A stretch of 64,000 bases of DNA. Source: Styela clava (lineage: Eukaryota > Chordata > Ascidiacea > Stolidobranchia > Styelidae). The notes below the pieces were generated by a model. It saw nothing but the letters and a program-made list of their open reading frames with translations, was not told the origin of the DNA and ran no database searches. Location of the stretch: assembly GCF_964204865.1 (NCBI RefSeq), contig NC_135259.1, forward strand, positions 18,486,974 through 18,550,973. Reading direction: 5' to 3'. Made by a program: the position numbers and the translations under genes. Of this stretch, positions 465 to 63,673 are shown piece by piece (positions within the stretch are counted from its first letter, which is position 1; each line of letters begins with the position of its first letter).

Positions 465-556
465 CGTCCCTGGGTGAGCTCGAACCACCAACCTTTCGGT
501 AACCGTCACAATGTGAGATTACAGTCGAACGCGCTGACCAATTGCGCCACAGAGAC
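465..556 (-). pseudogene. Family II tRNA-Asn-like gene with intron, GUA anticodon
   Basis: 92 bases: a 74-base tRNA body plus an 18-base insert between positions 37 and 38. The loop reads CTGTAA before the intron, giving anticodon GTA (Tyr type) where sister copies read GTT. Position 31 is A opposite C39, so the top of the anticodon stem is unpaired. Probably a decayed copy of the gene at 37761. The B box GGTTCGAGCTC is nearly normal. Confidence 0.7.
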
Positions 557-2747: not shown

Positions 2748-2839
2748 CGTCCCTGAGTGGGCTTGAACCACCAACCTTTCGGTACCCATCAGTGTAAGAG
2801 GTAACAGCCGAACGCGCTGACCGATTGCGCCACAGAGAC
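2748..2839 (-). tRNA. tRNA-Asn(GUU) with 18-nt intron, family I
   Basis: This tRNA would carry asparagine and read AAC and AAU. The 74-base body has acceptor GTCTCTG with CAGGGAC, A box TGGCGCAATCGG, anticodon loop CTGTTA-A, anticodon stem TTCGG with CCGAA, and B box GGTTCAAGCCC. An 18-base insert lies exactly between positions 37 and 38, the usual site of eukaryotic tRNA introns. A palindromic TTTTATAAAA lies about 32 bases upstream. No run of four or more T follows within about 250 bases, which is odd for a Pol III gene. This copy has a C to T change in the T stem (CCACTCAGG). First of 24 family I Asn loci; I have not seen an Asn intron in the well-known vertebrate sets, so the call rests on position and pairing. 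Confidence 0.85.
2784..2801 (-). other. Intron of tRNA-Asn, family I type
   Basis: Sense-strand CCTCTTACACTGATGGGT, between A37 and A38. The bases at its two ends can pair (UACC with GGUA across the exon borders), extending the anticodon helix as expected for a pre-tRNA intron. In other family I Asn copies it is CCTCTTATACTGATGGGT with small changes, always at offset 39-56 of the gene. Confidence 0.75.
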
Positions 2840-4396: not shown

Positions 4397-4488
4397 CGTC
4401 CCTGGGTGGGTTTGAACCGCCAACCTTTCGGTACCCATCAGTATAATGATAAACAGCCAAACGCATTTACCGATTGCGCCACAGAGAC
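4397..4488 (-). pseudogene. tRNA-Asn(GUU)-like with intron, altered position 37
   Basis: Intron ATCATTATACTGATGGGT; the base before it is T, not A37. The D arm (GGTAAATGCG) and anticodon stem (TTTGG) are changed, and T-arm pairing is kept. Shares these changes partly with 49056, so both descend from one altered unit. Confidence 0.65.
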
Positions 4489-5876: not shown

Positions 5877-5968
5877 CGTCCCTGGGTGGGCTTGAACCAC
5901 CAACCTTTTGGTACCCATCAGTATAAGAGGTAACAGCCGAACGCGCTGACCGATTGCACCACGGAGAC
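5877..5968 (-). pseudogene. tRNA-Asn(GUU)-like with intron
   Basis: Acceptor base changed (GTCTCCG), A box GTGCAATCGG, and anticodon stem 3' side CCAAA leaves C29 opposite A41. Intron length and site are normal. Confidence 0.65.
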
Positions 5969-7575: not shown

Positions 7576-7667
7576 CGTCCCTGGGTGGGCTTGAAGCACC
7601 AACCTTTCGGTACCCATCAGTATAAGAGGTAACAGCCGAACGCGCTGACCGATTGCACCACAGAGAC
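7576..7667 (-). tRNA. tRNA-Asn(GUU) with intron, T-stem mismatch
   Basis: Anticodon loop and intron normal. The T stem reads GGTGC, leaving C53 opposite C61, and the A box has GTGCAATCGG. Shared with 50535. Possibly inactive. Confidence 0.65.
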
Positions 7668-7964: not shown

Positions 7965-8320
7965 ACTCTTTATACCAAATATTTTAAATTTTTGATTTCT
8001 TTCAGAAGGATCATTAGTGAGGTTTTATATGTCAAATCATTGATTGTTACAGTTGTAAAAGCGACAGTGACTGGGTAGGTTGTTCGCGAAGAATCATGTG
8101 GCCATTACAGTGTCAGGTTTATAATAAATTAATTTTGGATAGAAATAGTTTTTCAGTGATATTTCCAACATGAAACAAAGACATCAGCTGTATACAGAAG
8201 ACAGAAGTACATGAAGTATTTCAAATACTGACGAAGAAAACTACGCGGATATTACTTCAGTAGCGCTACATTGAGGTAACACCAATTTATTAGATAATAC
8301 TTGTGCCAAAGTAATCGTGT

Positions 8321-12217: not shown

Positions 12218-12309
12218 CGTCCCTGGATGGGCTTGAACCACCAACCTTTCGGTACCCATCAATATAAGAGGTAACAGCCGAACGCGCTGACCGATTGCGC
12301 CACAGAGAC
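12218..12309 (-). tRNA. tRNA-Asn(GUU) with intron, family I
   Basis: Anticodon stem and loop intact; intron CCTCTTATATTGATGGGT. The T stem reads CCATCCAGG (a C to T change). Same haplotype at 16065 and 17705. Confidence 0.82.
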
Positions 12310-13857: not shown

Positions 13858-13949
13858 CGTCCCTGGGTGGGCTTGAACCACCAACCTTTCGGTACCCATC
13901 AGTTTAAGAGGTAACAGCCGAACGCGCTGACCGATTGCGCCACAGAGAC
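13858..13949 (-). tRNA. tRNA-Asn(GUU) with intron, family I
   Basis: Clean body with A37; intron CCTCTTAAACTGATGGGT. 5' flank GTACGTGTCG. Twin at 19345 (offset 5,487). Confidence 0.87.
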
Positions 13950-16064: not shown

Positions 16065-16156
16065 CGTCCCTGGATGGGCTTGAACCACCAACCTTTCGGT
16101 ACCCATCAATATAAGAGGTAACAGCCGAACGCGCTGACCGATTGCGCCACAGAGAC
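16065..16156 (-). tRNA. tRNA-Asn(GUU) with intron, family I
   Basis: Same haplotype as 12218, intron CCTCTTATATTGATGGGT. Confidence 0.82.
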
Positions 16157-17704: not shown

Positions 17705-17796
17705 CGTCCCTGGATGGGCTTGAACCACCAACCTTTCGGTACCCATCAATATAAGAGGTAACAGCCGAACGCGCTGACCGATTGCGCCACAGAGAC
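17705..17796 (-). tRNA. tRNA-Asn(GUU) with intron, family I
   Basis: Body and intron as at 12218. The flanking unit belongs to the 13347-type Ile haplotype, so unit types have been mixed here. Confidence 0.82.
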
Positions 17797-19344: not shown

Positions 19345-19436
19345 CGTCCCTGGGTGGGCTTGAACCACCAACCTTTCGGTACCCATCAGTTTAAGAGGTA
19401 ACAGCCGAACGCGCTGACCGATTGCGCCACAGAGAC
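19345..19436 (-). tRNA. tRNA-Asn(GUU) with intron, family I
   Basis: Twin of 13858, clean body. Confidence 0.87.
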
Positions 19437-21204: not shown

Positions 21205-21295
21205 CGTCCCTGGGTGGGCTTGAACCACCAACTTTCGGTACCCATCAGTTTAAGAGGGAACAGCCGAACGCGCTGACCGATTGCGCCACAGAGAC
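21205..21295 (-). pseudogene. tRNA-Asn-like with intron, one base deleted
   Basis: 91 bases: one G is missing next to the variable loop (CCGAAAGTTGG). C37 as in its twin at 9437. Confidence 0.7.
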
Positions 21296-23984: not shown

Positions 23985-24076
23985 CGTCCCTGGGTGGGCT
24001 TGAACCACCAACCTTTCGGTACCCATCAATATAAGAGGTAACAGCCGAACGCGCTGACCGATTGCGCCACAGAGAC
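23985..24076 (-). tRNA. tRNA-Asn(GUU) with intron, family I
   Basis: Normal T stem (CCACCCAGG), intron CCTCTTATATTGATGGGT. A clean copy. Confidence 0.87.
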
Positions 24077-33408: not shown

Positions 33409-33500
33409 CGTCCCTGGGTGGGCTCGAACCACCAACCTTTCGGTAACCCTCACAATGTGAGATAACAGCCGAACGCGCTGACCAATTGCGCCACAGAGAC
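33409..33500 (-). tRNA. tRNA-Asn(GUU) with 18-nt intron, family II type
   Basis: Class description. Anticodon GTT, stems TTCGG/CCGAA and GTCTCTG/CAGGGAC perfect, A box TGGCGCAATTGG, B box GGTTCGAGCCC. The insert between 37 and 38 is TCTCACATTGTGAGGGTT, different in sequence from family I but of the same length. The body differs from family I at the D loop (AATTGG) and T loop (TTCGAGC). TATTTTTAC follows at about +20, a better terminator than family I Asn genes have. This is the cleanest of the five family II Asn loci. Confidence 0.87.
33445..33462 (-). other. Intron of tRNA-Asn, family II type
   Basis: 18 bases containing a perfect short hairpin, CUCAC-AUU-GUGAG, between A37 and A38. Confidence 0.75.
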
Positions 33501-37760: not shown

Positions 37761-37852
37761 CGTCCCTGGGTGAGCTCGAACAACCAACCTTTCGGTAACC
37801 CTCACATTGTGAGATAACAGCCGAACGCACTGACCAATTGCGCCACAGAGAC
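37761..37852 (-). tRNA. tRNA-Asn(GUU) with intron, family II
   Basis: Anticodon and intron site normal; intron TCTCACAATGTGAGGGTT, hairpin kept. The T stem has a change (GGTTGTTCGAGCTC). Confidence 0.75.
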
Positions 37853-39934: not shown

Positions 39935-40026
39935 CGTCCGCGGGTGGGCTCGAACCACCAACCTTTCGGTAACCCTCACAATATGAGATAACAGTCGAAC
40001 GCGCTGACCAATTGCGCCACAGAGAC
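39935..40026 (-). pseudogene. tRNA-Asn(GUU)-like with intron, family II
   Basis: The 3' acceptor strand reads CGCGGAC, breaking a pair, and A31 faces C39. Intron TCTCATATTGTGAGGGTT. Confidence 0.68.
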
Positions 40027-41285: not shown

Positions 41286-41377
41286 CGTCCCTGGGTGGGC
41301 TCGAACCACCGACCTTTCGGTAACCCTCACTATGTGAGATAACAGCTGTACGCGCTGACCAATTGCGCCACAGAGAC
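41286..41377 (-). pseudogene. tRNA-Asn(GUU)-like with intron, broken anticodon stem
   Basis: The 5' anticodon strand is TACAG instead of TTCGG, losing several pairs. Intron TCTCACATAGTGAGGGTT. Confidence 0.7.
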
Positions 41378-43645: not shown

Positions 43646-43689
43646 CGTTGCAAAACTAAAACTGATCTGACCTTTGTTTGAAGAAAAGT

Positions 43690-43761
43690 TTCCGAGACCG
43701 GGTATCGAACCCGGGCCGCCTGGGTGAAAGTCAGAAATCCTAACCCCTAGACCATCTGGGA
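43690..43761 (-). tRNA. tRNA-Glu(UUC), inverted copy
   Basis: A31 (TCTGA) opposite C39 and TCTCGGA in the 3' acceptor strand opposite C3/C4 weaken two stems. TTTT follows. Mirror twin at 46679. Confidence 0.72.
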
Positions 43762-44110
43762 ATACGATTACTTTGGCAGAAGTATATTCTAATAAATTGG
43801 TGTTACCTCAATGTAGCGCTACCGAAGTAATATCCGCGTAGTTTTCTTCGTCAGTATTTGAAATACTTCATGTACTTCTGTATACAGTTGATGTCTTTGT
43901 TTTATGTTGGAAATATCACTGAAAAACTATTGCTATTTAAAATTAATTTATTATAAAGCTGACACTGTATTGGCCATATGGTTCTTCACGAACAACCTAC
44001 CCAGTCACAGTCGCGTTTACAACTGTAACATTCAATGATTTGACATATAAAACCTCACTAATGATCCTTCTGAAAGAAATCAAAAATTTAAAATATTTGG
44101 TATAAAGAGT

Positions 44111-44182
44111 TTCCCAGACCGGGAATAGAACCCGGGCCGCATGGGTGAGAGCCTGAAATCCTAACGCCTAGTCCATCTGGGA
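44111..44182 (-). pseudogene. psi-Glu (CUC), inverted copy
   Basis: T loop TTCTATT, acceptor and T stems perfect; class mismatches in D and anticodon stems. Confidence 0.78.
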
Positions 44183-44407
44183 TATCGGCAGAAATGACCT
44201 ACTCTCTCTACTGAACTAATATCCATGCTGTCTTCGAGATCAGTATTTTAAATACTTCATGTAATTCTTTCTTAAATGTGTAAATTATGTGTTTTGTTGT
44301 GTTGAGAAAATCATTTGAAACCAATGTAATTTAATGCATATCACCAAAAAATATTGGACATTTCGAATCTTTTATAAAAACAAATTAACAAACCGTAGTC
44401 CGTGTCG

Positions 44408-44463
44408 GTCTCTGTAGCGCAATCGGTCAGCGCGTTCGGCTGTTACCTCTTATACTGATGGGT

Positions 44464-44499
<36 letters not shown>
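44408..44499 (+). tRNA. tRNA-Asn(GUU) with intron, inverted copy
   Basis: Intron at 44446-44463 (CCTCTTATACTGATGGGT). G to A in the A box (TGTAGCGCAATCGG), and the 3' strand CGGGGAC changes one acceptor pair to a G-U pair. A TTTTATAAAAAC motif lies about 35 bases upstream. Confidence 0.8.
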
Positions 44500-44941
44500 C
44501 TGTTATTTACAAAATGAATCCTTTCTATCTGTGTGTTCCCTCGGATGAAATCCATTTAATATTAAGGCATAGCAGATCTATCTCTTTTTCTGTTTCCTAG
44601 AGTCAAACAGATACTACAAACACAAATGTCGCTGACAGAATTTAGTACTTCGTAACTGAAAGATGCTATCTCGTTCTTCTACTGTTTCTTCACACAATTA
44701 ATCGATGGTGACTAAAATATCAAATTTAAAACTTCTTCCTCACTCTATATGCTTAGACGGATTCCAGTTTTCCATAAGGAATAGACTAACGGCGATTTTA
44801 GTACTTTCCTATCAGCGCTTTTGACTCGTGTGAAAAAAGTACTTTCTTAGTTAAAAAAATACCATTTCACAACTTCCTTCTTGAAGACGTATACTGTAAG
44901 AGTCATAATGAAATTGGCTGAGTATATTCAAAAGAACATAT

Positions 44942-45015
44942 GGCCAGTTAGCTCAGTTGGTTAGAGCATCGTGCTAATAACGCGAATGTCGCGGGTTCCA
45001 TCCCCGTACTGGCCA
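44942..45015 (+). tRNA. tRNA-Ile(AAU), inverted copy
   Basis: Acceptor GGCCAGT pairs perfectly with ACTGGCC, and TTTTTT follows. T loop TTCCATC has G57 changed to C, and the D arm reads AGAGCATCG. Confidence 0.82.
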
Positions 45016-45020
45016 GTGTG

Positions 45021-45026
45021 TTTTTT
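45021..45026 (+). terminator. Pol III T-run terminator of tRNA-Ile
   Basis: TTTTTT five bases past the discriminator, the longest T run after any Ile gene here. Confidence 0.8.
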
Positions 45027-45446
45027 AGCTGTTAATCTCAAAGAATGACACGTGACTTGAAGTTGGGTGAAAGTGTTGTGCAGTTGAATTATTGTACTCG
45101 TGACATTGCCATGGTTGCATGCATCTTTACGATCATCCTCCTTAACAACTACAAGAGTTAAATCGATAAATTATCAGGTTAAACGTGAAAGTGTTGTGCT
45201 GTTATATTAGTGTACTCGTGACATTGCCATGGTTGCATGCATCTTTACGATCATCCTCCTTAACAACTACAACAGTTAAATCGATAAATTATCAGGTTAA
45301 ACCACCACTAATCACATTCTGGAAAGTTTTTGTTGAGGTAATATATTCTTTAGTCACTCGAGAAATACAGCCTAAAGTGTAAAAATTCACCATTATCTTT
45401 CTGACGTTTCAAAACTAAAACTGATCTGATCTTTGTGTGAGTTAGT

Positions 45447-45518
45447 TATCCAGACCGGGAATCGAACCCGGGCCGCCTGGGTGAAAGCCAGGAATCCTAA
45501 CCCCTAGACCATCTGGGA
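45447..45518 (-). tRNA. tRNA-Glu(UUC), acceptor mismatches
   Basis: Anticodon, D and T arms are consensus. The 3' acceptor strand is TCTGGAT, losing terminal pairing. The 3' flank lacks the usual TTTT. Confidence 0.7.
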
Positions 45519-45874
45519 ATACTATTACTTTGGCAGAAGTATATTCTAATAAATTGGTGTTACCGCAATGTAGCGCTACTGAAGTAATATCCACGTAGTT
45601 TTCTTCGTCAGTATTTGAAATACTTCATGTATTTCTGTCTTCTGTATACAGTTGATGTCTTTGTTTTATGTTGGAAATATCACTGAAAAACTATTGCTAT
45701 TCAAAATTAATTTATTATAAAGCTGACACAGTAATGGCCACATGGTTCTTCACGAGCAACCTACCCAGTCACAGTCGCGTTTACAACTGTAACAATCAAT
45801 GATTTGACATATGAAACCTCACTAATGATCCTTCTGGAAGAAATCAAAAATTTAAAATATTTGGTATAAAGAGT

Positions 45875-45946
45875 TTCCCAGACCGGGAATAGAACCCGGG
45901 ACGCATGGGTGGGAGCCTGAAATCTTAACGCCTAGTCCATCTGGGA
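45875..45946 (-). pseudogene. psi-Glu (CUC), inverted copy
   Basis: Loop CTCCCAC: the anticodon is CCC here, a further change. TTAAGATT D arm. T loop TTCTATT. Confidence 0.75.
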
Positions 45947-46162
45947 TATCGGCAGAAATGAACTACTCTCCTCCTTAACAACTACAACAGTTAAAACGAT
46001 GAATTACCAGGTTAAACCCCACTAATCACATTCTTCAAAGTTTTTGTTGAGGTAATATATTCTTTAGTCACTCGAGAAATACAGCCCGAAGTGTAAAGCT
46101 TAACCATTATCTTTCTGACGTTTCAAAACTAATACTGACCTGATCTTTGTTTGAAGAAAAGT

Positions 46163-46234
46163 TTCCCAGACCAGGAATCGAACCCGGGCCGCCTGGGTGA
46201 AAGCCAGGAATGCTAACCCCTAGACCATCTGGGA
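46163..46234 (-). tRNA. tRNA-Glu(UUC), inverted copy
   Basis: Near consensus: TTAGCATTCC in the D arm and a G-U pair in the T stem (TTCCTGG). TTTT follows. No Ile, Asn or psi-Glu lies between this copy and the psi-Glu at 45875, so about 1 kb has been deleted. Confidence 0.82.
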
Positions 46235-46479
46235 ATACGATTACTTCGGCAGAAGTATATTCTAATAAATTGGTGTTACCTCAATGTAGCGCTACTGAAG
46301 TAATATCCGTGTAGTTTTCTTCGTCAGTATTTGAAATACTTCATGTACTTCTGTATAGAGTTGATGTCTTTGTTTTATGTAGGAAATATCACTGAAAAAC
46401 TATTGCTATTCAAAATTAATTCATTATAAAGCTGACACTGTAATGGCCACATGGTCACAAAATATTTGGTATAAAGAGT

Positions 46480-46551
46480 TTGCCAGACCGGGTATTGAAC
46501 GCGGGCCGCCTGGGTGATAGCCATGAATCCTAACCCCTAGACCATCTGGGA
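46480..46551 (-). pseudogene. Chimeric tRNA-Glu-like gene, AUC anticodon
   Basis: The 3' flank (ACTCTTTATACC) belongs to psi-Glu while the 5' half and upstream flank belong to the normal Glu gene, so this locus is a crossover product. Loop CTATCAC gives anticodon ATC. The B box is GTTCAATACC and the acceptor has a mismatch (TCTGGCA). Confidence 0.7.
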
Positions 46552-46678
46552 ATACGATTACTTTGGCAGAAGTATATTCTAATAAATTGGTGTTACCTCA
46601 ATGTAGCGCTACCGAAGTAATATTAAATTAATTTAATATAAAGCTGACAATGTAATGTCCACATGTATGTAATCGTAT

Positions 46679-47406: not shown

Positions 47407-47498
47407 CGTCCCTGGGTGGGCTTGAACCACCAACCTTTTGGTACCCATCAGTATAAGAGGTAACAGATGAACGCACTGACCGATTGCGCGACAGAGAC
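47407..47498 (-). pseudogene. tRNA-Asn(GUU)-like with intron, broken anticodon stem
   Basis: Anticodon strand TTCAT faces CCAAA, and the acceptor reads GTCTCTGTCG at the junction. Intron normal. Confidence 0.68.
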
Positions 47499-49055: not shown

Positions 49056-49147
49056 CGTCCCTGGGTGGGCTTGAACCGCCAACCTTTCGGTACCCATCAG
49101 TATAATGGTAAACAGCCGAACGCATTGACCGATTGCGCCGCAGAGAA
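49056..49147 (-). pseudogene. tRNA-Asn(GUU)-like with intron, altered 1 and 37
   Basis: The first base is T (TTCTCTG) and T replaces A37. Intron ACCATTATACTGATGGGT. Related to 4397. Confidence 0.66.
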
Positions 49148-50534: not shown

Positions 50535-50626
50535 CGTCCCTGGGTGGGCTTGAAGCACCAACCTTCCGGTACCCATCAGTATGAGAGGTAACAGCCGAAC
50601 GCGCTGACCGATTGCACCAAAGAGAA
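50535..50626 (-). pseudogene. tRNA-Asn(GUU)-like with intron, several changes
   Basis: First base T, TTGGTGC acceptor/A-box area, GGTGC T-stem mismatch and CCGGA in the anticodon stem. Intron CCTCTCATACTGATGGGT. Confidence 0.68.
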
Positions 50627-52734: not shown

Positions 52735-52826
52735 CGTCCCTGGGTGGGCTTGAACCACCAACCTTTCGGTACCCATCAGTATAAGAGGTAACAGCCGAAC
52801 GCGCTGACCGATTGCGCCACAGAGAC
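52735..52826 (-). tRNA. tRNA-Asn(GUU) with intron, family I
   Basis: Body and intron consensus. The immediate upstream flank differs (GTATGTGTATG) and TATAAATAC replaces TATAAAAAC at about -32. Confidence 0.87.
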
Positions 52827-54705: not shown

Positions 54706-55260
54706 AAGGATAGAAAGTACTAAAATCGCCGTTGGGCTATTCCTTGTGGAAAAGTGGAATTCGTCTAAGCATATAGAGTGAGGGAGAAGTTTTTCATTTG
54801 ATATTTTAGTCACCATCGATTAATTGTGTGAAGAAACAGTAGAGGAACGAAATAGCATCTTTCAGTTACGAAGTACTAAATTCTGTCAGCGACATTTGTT
54901 TTTGTAGTATCTGTTTGACTCTAGGAAACAGAAATTAAAGATAGACTTGCTAATTCTTAATATTAAATGGATTTCATCCGAGGGAACACACAGATAGAAA
55001 GGATTCATTTTTTAAATAATAGACAGCGTCCCTGGGTGGGCTTGAACCACCAACCTTTCGGTACTCATCAGTATAAGAGGTAACAGCCGAACGCGCTGAC
55101 CGATTGCGCCACAGAGACCGACACGGACTATGGTTTGTAGCATCTTTCAGTTACGAAGTACTAAATTCTGTCAGCGACATTTGTTTTTGTAGTATCTGTT
55201 TGACTCTAGGAAACAGAAATTAAAGATAGACTTGCTATTCCCTAATATTAAATGGATTTC
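54706..55260. repeat. Local duplication doubling the tRNA-Asn gene
   Basis: At about 54706 the unit jumps back to sequence near 54410 (AAGGATAGAAAGTACT), and at about 55139 it jumps back again (GGTTTGTAGCATCTTTC). The result is two Asn genes 285 bp apart. Confidence 0.85.
55027..55118 (-). tRNA. tRNA-Asn(GUU) with intron, upstream flank lost
   Basis: Body consensus; intron CCTCTTATACTGATGAGT. Only about 21 bases of the normal 5' flank remain, so the TATA-like element is missing. Confidence 0.85.
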
Positions 55261-55311: not shown

Positions 55312-55403
55312 CGTCCCTGGGTGGGCTTGAACCACCAACCTTTCGGTACCCATCAGTATAAGAGGTAACAGCCGAACGCGCTGACCGATTGCGCCACAGA
55401 GAC
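55312..55403 (-). tRNA. tRNA-Asn(GUU) with intron, consensus
   Basis: Consensus body, intron CCTCTTATACTGATGGGT, normal upstream flank with TTTTATAAAA. Confidence 0.9.
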
Positions 55404-56964: not shown

Positions 56965-57056
56965 CGTCCCTGGGTGGGCTTGAACCACTAACCTTTCGGT
57001 ACCCATCAGTATAAGAGGTAACAGCCGAACGCGCTGAACGATTGCGCCACAGAGAC
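56965..57056 (-). tRNA. tRNA-Asn(GUU) with intron
   Basis: One change in the T stem (TTAGTGG) and one in the D loop (CGTTCAGCGC). Intron consensus. Confidence 0.78.
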
Positions 57057-58618: not shown

Positions 58619-58710
58619 CGTCCCTGGGTGGGCTTGAACCACCAACCTTTCGGTACCCATCAGTATAAGAGGTAACAGCCGAACGCGCTGACCGATTGCG
58701 CCACAGAGAC
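58619..58710 (-). tRNA. tRNA-Asn(GUU) with intron, consensus
   Basis: Best example of the family I gene: all stems paired, A and B boxes sound, intron CCTCTTATACTGATGGGT at 58655-58672. TTTTATAAAA at about -32. No T4 run follows nearby. Confidence 0.92.
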
Positions 58711-60271: not shown

Positions 60272-60363
60272 CGTCCCTGGGTGGGCTTGAACCACCAACC
60301 TTTCGGTACCCATCAGTATAAGAAGTAACAGCCGAACGCGCTGACCGATTGCGCCACAGAGAC
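60272..60363 (-). tRNA. tRNA-Asn(GUU) with intron
   Basis: Consensus body; the intron starts CTTCTTATACTG, one change. Confidence 0.9.
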
Positions 60364-61924: not shown

Positions 61925-62016
61925 CGTCCCTGTGTGAGCTTGAACCACCAACCTTTCGGTACCCATCAGTATAAGAGGTAATAGCCGAACGCGCTGACCG
62001 ATTGCGCCACAGAGAC
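61925..62016 (-). tRNA. tRNA-Asn with intron, AUU anticodon
   Basis: Loop CTATTA: G34 is A, giving anticodon ATT. An A34 here could be edited to inosine, still reading Asn codons but perhaps also AAA. T-stem changes CTCACACAGG leave a mismatch. Confidence 0.75.
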
Positions 62017-63581: not shown

Positions 63582-63673
63582 CGTCCCTGGGTGAGCTTGA
63601 ACCACCAACCTTTCGGTACCCATCAGTATAAGAGGTAACAGCCGAACGCGCTGACCGATTGCGCCAAAGAGAC
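63582..63673 (-). tRNA. tRNA-Asn(GUU) with intron
   Basis: GTCTCTTTGGCGC has one change next to the A box, and the T stem reads CTCACCCAGG. Anticodon arm and intron consensus. Confidence 0.8.

Follow-up and report, generated by a model that had tools for sequence, protein, structure and literature searches.

The stretch of DNA analysed here (the window; 64,000 nucleotides, C13:18486974-18550973, in a genome of 376.6 Mb in 379 contigs) carries a series of tRNA-Asn loci that are best explained, at a probability of roughly three in four, as nuclear tRNA-Asn(GUU) genes with a canonical intron at the 37/38 site, brought to high copy number as passengers in a large tandem tRNA array. The intron is apparent from its position and length, from its agreement with splice-site rules, from the sound exons of 68 of 117 scored array copies, and from the occurrence in the same genome of TSEN-domain and RtcB homologues and of intron-bearing tRNA-Tyr genes. 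From these sequence features we infer that array copies of tRNA-Asn are transcribed, cut and joined.

tRNA-Asn loci of the window and the surrounding array

Searches with a 5'-end probe and with a 3'-end probe (at most three mismatches) each recovered the same number of tRNA-Asn loci in the window, 29, against means of 0.01 and 0.00 loci in the dinucleotide-shuffled background, which rules out a chance pattern as the source of the inserts. The loci (table 1) are 92 nt long in 28 cases and 91 nt in one, where the single lost base belongs to exon 2 and leaves the intron unaffected. As an earlier note on this DNA had claimed, all 29 carry 18 extra bases exactly between nucleotides 37 and 38. In sequence, a point on which that note needs correction, two classes of insert can be distinguished: class A, resembling CCTCTTATACTGATGGGT, with 24 loci, and class B, resembling TCTCACATTGTGAGGGTT, with five. 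The anticodon is GTT in 27 of the loci, the exceptions reading GTA (465-556) and ATT (61925-62016). The further claim that removal of the insert restores a standard tRNA-Asn holds for about half of the loci: 16 of 29 combine GTT with stems free of mispairs (the one at 21205 only if its lost base is allowed for), two of these 16 (9437 and 21205) having C instead of A at position 37, and the remainder yield a standard tRNA-Asn only approximately.

Table 1. tRNA-Asn loci of the window, with the intron of the locus on which the earlier note was centred (flagged). Positions are counted from the first nucleotide of the window.
Feature	Position	Strand	Basis
flagged tRNA-Asn(GUU), class A, stems intact	58619..58710	-	end probes
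18-nt intron of flagged locus, CCTCTTATACTGATGGGT	58655..58672	-	
tRNA-Asn-like, class B, anticodon GTA, one stem mismatch	465..556	-	
tRNA-Asn, class A, stems intact	2748..2839	-	
tRNA-Asn, class A, T37, two stem mismatches	4397..4488	-	
tRNA-Asn, class A, two stem mismatches	5877..5968	-	
tRNA-Asn, class A, one stem mismatch	7576..7667	-	
tRNA-Asn, class A, stems intact, C37	9437..9528	-	
tRNA-Asn, class A, stems intact	12218..12309	-	
tRNA-Asn, class A, stems intact, TTTT downstream	13858..13949	-	
tRNA-Asn, class A, stems intact	16065..16156	-	
tRNA-Asn, class A, stems intact	17705..17796	-	
tRNA-Asn, class A, stems intact, TTTT downstream	19345..19436	-	
tRNA-Asn, class A, one base lost in exon 2, C37	21205..21295	-	
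tRNA-Asn, class A, stems intact	23985..24076	-	
tRNA-Asn, class B, stems intact, TTTTT ~20 nt downstream	33409..33500	-	
tRNA-Asn, class B, one stem mismatch, T-run downstream	37761..37852	-	
tRNA-Asn, class B, two stem mismatches, T-run downstream	39935..40026	-	
tRNA-Asn, class B, two stem mismatches, T-run downstream	41286..41377	-	
tRNA-Asn, class A, stems intact, within inverted segment	44408..44499	+	
tRNA-Asn, class A, three stem mismatches	47407..47498	-	
tRNA-Asn, class A, T37, three stem mismatches	49056..49147	-	
tRNA-Asn, class A, three stem mismatches	50535..50626	-	
tRNA-Asn, class A, stems intact	52735..52826	-	
tRNA-Asn, class A, stems intact, proximal C32:G(-3) pair broken (C:A)	55027..55118	-	
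tRNA-Asn, class A, stems intact	55312..55403	-	
tRNA-Asn, class A, one stem mismatch	56965..57056	-	
tRNA-Asn, class A, stems intact	60272..60363	-	
tRNA-Asn-like, class A, anticodon ATT, one stem mismatch	61925..62016	-	
tRNA-Asn, class A, one stem mismatch	63582..63673	-	

The window lies within a tandem array of tRNA-Glu, tRNA-Ile and tRNA-Asn genes that extends at least over C13:18.334-18.648 Mb (at least ~310 kb). Near the end of the window the repeat unit measures ~1,653 nt and comprises Ile(AAT), Asn and two Glu genes. The array sequence covered by our analyses amounts to 260 kb in one piece plus three 10-kb stretches, with 18590001-18618000 left out. ARAGORN predicted 120 tRNA genes in the window and 461 in the 260 kb, mostly Glu(TTC/CTC), Asn and Ile(AAT). 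A fuzzy search of the covered stretches located 118 Asn loci, every one with the 18-nt insert and none intronless; the sole odd gap length among them belongs to the copy with the lost exon base. Three ARAGORN calls of an intron-free 'Asn' gene in the array were discarded, two being by sequence Glu bodies with GTT and the third an Ile body with ATT. One copy at an edge was dropped, and the remaining 117 (72 of class A and 45 of class B) were scored.

The array shows some irregularities of its own. Window positions 43688-46552 form an inverted segment, in which the Asn locus at 44408 lies on the plus strand and the adjoining Glu genes on the minus strand. Anticodons unlike those of the array siblings occur at window positions 8320, 32982, 37337 and 42844, at C13:18371452 and 18374691, and at L010:1544 and 3197; such cases include genes with a Lys anticodon amid Glu genes, two Glu-type bodies with GTT, and ACT where the unit has Ile.

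tRNA-Asn genes elsewhere in the genome

The pattern CTGTTA-N(0-30)-ACCGAAAGGTTGG has 163 exact matches in the genome, six of them intronless and the other 157 interrupted by 1-30 nt. Among the matches listed, together with the covered array, one insert is 16 nt long, one 23 nt and all others 18 nt. No match with exact flanks and an intron of 31-61 nt was found genome-wide. The 16-nt intron is unrelated in sequence to the others and belongs to a tRNA-Asn gene at C3:2416005, outside the array, whose stems are sound and whose downstream flank has TTTTT starting at its fourth base. The 23-nt intron (C13:18807303) resembles class A, the exons around it are altered, and no T4 occurs in 45 nt.

With up to two mismatches allowed, the intronless pattern gave nine matches, and the reversed-pattern control gave one per strand. 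Of the nine, eight represent tRNA-Asn genes, six of them identical to the pattern and two differing from it at one position; the remaining match has two mismatches. All eight genes have a 74-nt body with no mispaired stem and a run of T4-T6 starting 7-10 nt downstream, and the mature sequences of classes A and B differ from them by 1-4 bases. The earlier note had reasoned that splicing would be essential for reading AAC and AAU if the intron-bearing loci were the only Asn genes, and had named as its refutation a lack of spliced product together with abundant intronless Asn genes elsewhere. Intronless genes elsewhere, one half of that condition, do exist: the pattern search uncovered eight sound ones with terminators, and the premise fails. 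Splicing is therefore not shown to be essential for decoding these codons, and we rejected that proposition. As judged from their sequences, the intron-bearing Asn genes are redundant with the intronless ones. The Asn intron is thus very probably real and unusual for a tRNA-Asn, and need not be essential for decoding.

Splice-site features and splicing machinery

The proximal pair C32:G(-3) is present in 28 of the 29 window loci and in 115 of the 117 array copies (71/72 in class A, 44/45 in class B), and also in the 16-nt and 23-nt introns. Of the 72 class A copies, 71 form all four pairs of the helix between anticodon and intron, and of the 45 class B copies 44 form at least three. In all four Asn intron types the 3' bulge has three nucleotides (GUA, UUA, UCA and UUA), as assigned by position and not by predicted fold, and six nucleotides (CUGUUA), again by position, span C32 to the 5' cut. 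These features agree with what is described for metazoan splice sites, namely a C:G proximal pair in all 16 intron-containing tRNAs of Drosophila (PMC6614914), a 3' bulge that is invariably 3 nt long and a run of six nucleotides that starts with C32 and closes exon 1 in fly and human reporter work (PMC6614914), and a C32:G pair with a 3-nt 3' bulge in the human TSEN structure (PMC10539383). The reading of the insert as a canonical intron, put forward in the earlier note, is in this respect borne out: the site is 37/38, and the published rules are obeyed as they are by two kinds of tRNA-Tyr intron in this genome. The introns of classes A and B are identical at 11 of their 18 bases, and a relationship between them is possible; the conserved G(-3) therefore represents few independent observations.

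The genes for tRNA-Tyr, the classic intron-bearing tRNA of animals, served as a control. A pattern that allowed an alternative anticodon stem found 126 exact matches in the genome (an earlier, stricter pattern had none), with introns of 15-17 nt in all of the 100 matches listed; the two Tyr intron types that we examined both have G at -3. Amplified tRNA-Tyr arrays were seen at C16:8341487 onward and at C8:2.64 Mb. Searches for the splicing enzymes gave two genome matches, at domain level, to the TSEN nuclease domain (PF01974) and eight exon-like matches to RtcB (PF01139) within 7 kb of contig C10, seven of them above the cut-off. Four of these eight contain a stop, as would be expected if a match overran the edge of an exon.

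Predicted folding is less telling. With each of the four Asn intron types, the anticodon arm is predicted to reach its lowest energy in a structure other than the bulge-helix-bulge-like one, the minimum and the bulge-helix-bulge-like energies being -7.9 versus -1.8 kcal/mol for class A, -10.3 versus -1.4 for class B, -5.7 versus -3.5 for the 16-nt intron and -6.4 versus -2.8 for the 23-nt intron. The two tRNA-Tyr controls fail in the same way, and free folding therefore does not discriminate splicing. The fold result is what speaks for regarding the 18-nt insert as a fixed, tRNA-destroying insertion that happens to lie at 37/38, an explanation we consider highly improbable given the exact canonical position, the observance of the splice rules, and the fact that a sound gene on another contig is interrupted at this very site by an unrelated 16-nt intron, besides the intron-bearing Tyr genes and the TSEN-domain and RtcB homologues. 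Because the splice rules are obeyed and the genome possesses both intron-bearing tRNA-Tyr genes and homologues of the TSEN nuclease domain and of RtcB, we judge the array inserts to be true tRNA introns, whose transcription and splicing would follow the usual route. RNA polymerase III would transcribe an Asn copy; the transcript would form a cloverleaf in which C32 pairs with the third-last intron base (G); TSEN would cleave at both ends of the intron, behind nucleotide 37 and in front of nucleotide 38; and RTCB would ligate the halves into a mature tRNA that stands 1-4 bases from those of the eight intronless genes.

Sound and decaying copies

The array is a mix of sound and decaying copies. 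A flawless mature tRNA with GTT is predicted for 44 of 72 class A and 24 of 45 class B copies, and 49 of the 117 are faulty in the anticodon or in the pairing of a stem. In one case this is solely because the lost base shifts the register; that copy was counted as unsound in this scoring. Downstream signals separate the classes sharply: a run of T4 or longer occurs within 30 nt in 6 of 72 class A copies and in all 45 class B copies, and 66 of the 72 class A copies have none within 60 nt. In the same window T4 is found within 30 nt of 3 of 16 Ile genes and of 82 of 84 Glu genes; the Ile and class A Asn genes have a similar trailer (TGTCT...), in which a T4 terminator is mostly absent. The class A majority without T4 may consist of weak genes, or of pseudogenes homogenised by repeat turnover. 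Class B copies are the better candidates for expression, as predicted from the presence of T-run terminators.

Conservation across the 117 aligned copies proved of little help as a test of function. Exons vary less than the upstream 60 nt (class A, p=2.6e-4; class B, p=0.0066), and less than the first 40 nt downstream in class B only (p=0.024; class A, p=0.56). They are no less variable than downstream positions 41-200 (p=0.96 and 0.45 for classes A and B) or than the intron (p=0.40 and 0.55), and the intron columns contain no gaps or length changes. The farther downstream flank is thus kept as well as the exons, and this line of inquiry led nowhere. Since exons are not better kept than the intron or positions 41-200, selection on the array copies looks weak or absent. 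Repeat turnover may have produced much of the array as a by-product.

These observations give a real, if minority, chance to the view that the array copies are mostly dead, that is, amplified tRNA-Asn pseudogenes whose insert is the remnant of a once-spliced intron, the tRNA-Asn in use coming from the eight intronless genes and perhaps from the C3 gene with the 16-nt intron. The 49 defective copies, the class A copies lacking T4, the exons kept no better than positions 41-200, and the eight intronless genes with faultless stems and nearby terminators are all in line with it; the terminators of all 45 class B copies, the proximal pair retained in 115 of 117 copies, the 68 flawless copies and the gap-free intron columns argue against it. 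It, too, treats the insert as an intron and parts from our preferred reading, in which canonical introns were carried along by the amplification of a tRNA array, over whether the copies are used, so that the odds of the two overlap. A stronger version of the preferred reading, that an animal lineage gained a tRNA-Asn(GUU) intron and now transcribes and splices the amplified copies in quantity, appears rather doubtful.

Less likely again is that the intron-bearing copies were amplified for dosage, as the main tRNA-Asn or as a source of stable intron circles, with the intronless genes minor. The numbers favour such a role (157 exact insert-bearing matches versus six exact intronless ones, or eight with one mismatch allowed), as does the known circularization of animal tRNA introns (PMC6614914). 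However, a T4 terminator is missing from most class A copies, and the genes for Glu, Ile, Lys and Tyr tRNAs have been amplified likewise, so that no Asn-specific reason is needed for the amplification.

Relation to known tRNA introns and tRNA clusters

Canonical pre-tRNA introns of animals occur in isotypes such as Tyr, Leu-CAA and Ile-UAU, and tRNA-Asn is, to our knowledge, usually intronless in animals. The Asn intron described here is ordinary in mechanism and unusual in isotype and copy number. It resembles the canonical introns in its 37/38 site, its C32:G(-3) pair, the six-nucleotide run that begins with C32 and ends at the 5' cut, the 3-nt 3' bulge, the accompanying TSEN-domain and RtcB homologues, and a length (16-23 nt) close to that of the 15-17-nt Tyr introns of this genome; it differs from them in the isotype, Asn(GUU), in its well over 100 copies in one array, and in the intronless genes of the same isotype alongside. 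We found no report of an intron in an animal tRNA-Asn in the open-licence literature, a scope with most subscription papers and the tRNA databases outside it, nor in the portions of PMC8450103, PMC12239594, PMC7962491 and PMC11408192 available to us.

Two partial parallels exist. Canonical tRNA introns have been gained and lost by isotypes in single eukaryotic lineages, and the lineage-specific gains in yeasts likewise concern an isotype that is intronless in some relatives and has a canonical intron in one species (PMC4090602); unlike those gains, the present case involves an animal-like genome and massive copying. Nematostella vectensis has more than 17,000 tRNA genes and pseudogenes, 89% of them in clusters that are large and heterogeneous (PMC2888827), comparable to the 32,363 first-look tRNA candidates of our genome (63 of them scored) and its dense Glu/Ile/Asn, Lys and Tyr arrays. 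The main text of that study makes no mention of Asn introns ('asn' has 0 occurrences; PMC2888827).

A single genome with intronless and intron-bearing Asn genes and at least two unlike intron sequences offers a natural comparison of intron gain. The same mix allows maturation with and without an intron to be compared, including queuosine addition to the precursor versus the mature tRNA, which has been demonstrated on pre-tRNA-Tyr (PMC12313893). If splicing in quantity were true, Asn would be the second queuosine-type (GUN) tRNA, after Tyr, to need ordered wobble modification and splicing, and the array might supply 18-nt intron circles in bulk. As the array demonstrates, tandem amplification of tRNA genes carries introns along with the genes; the understanding of tRNA intron function is left unchanged by it.

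Elsewhere in the genome, the start of contig 1 (C1:38-679) carries TTAGGG telomere-type repeats with a few TTAGG units, which argue against most arthropods as the source; a cnidarian source is conjectural. A tRNA-Lys(TTT) array at C2:15885000-15894999 has 15 genes in 10 kb.
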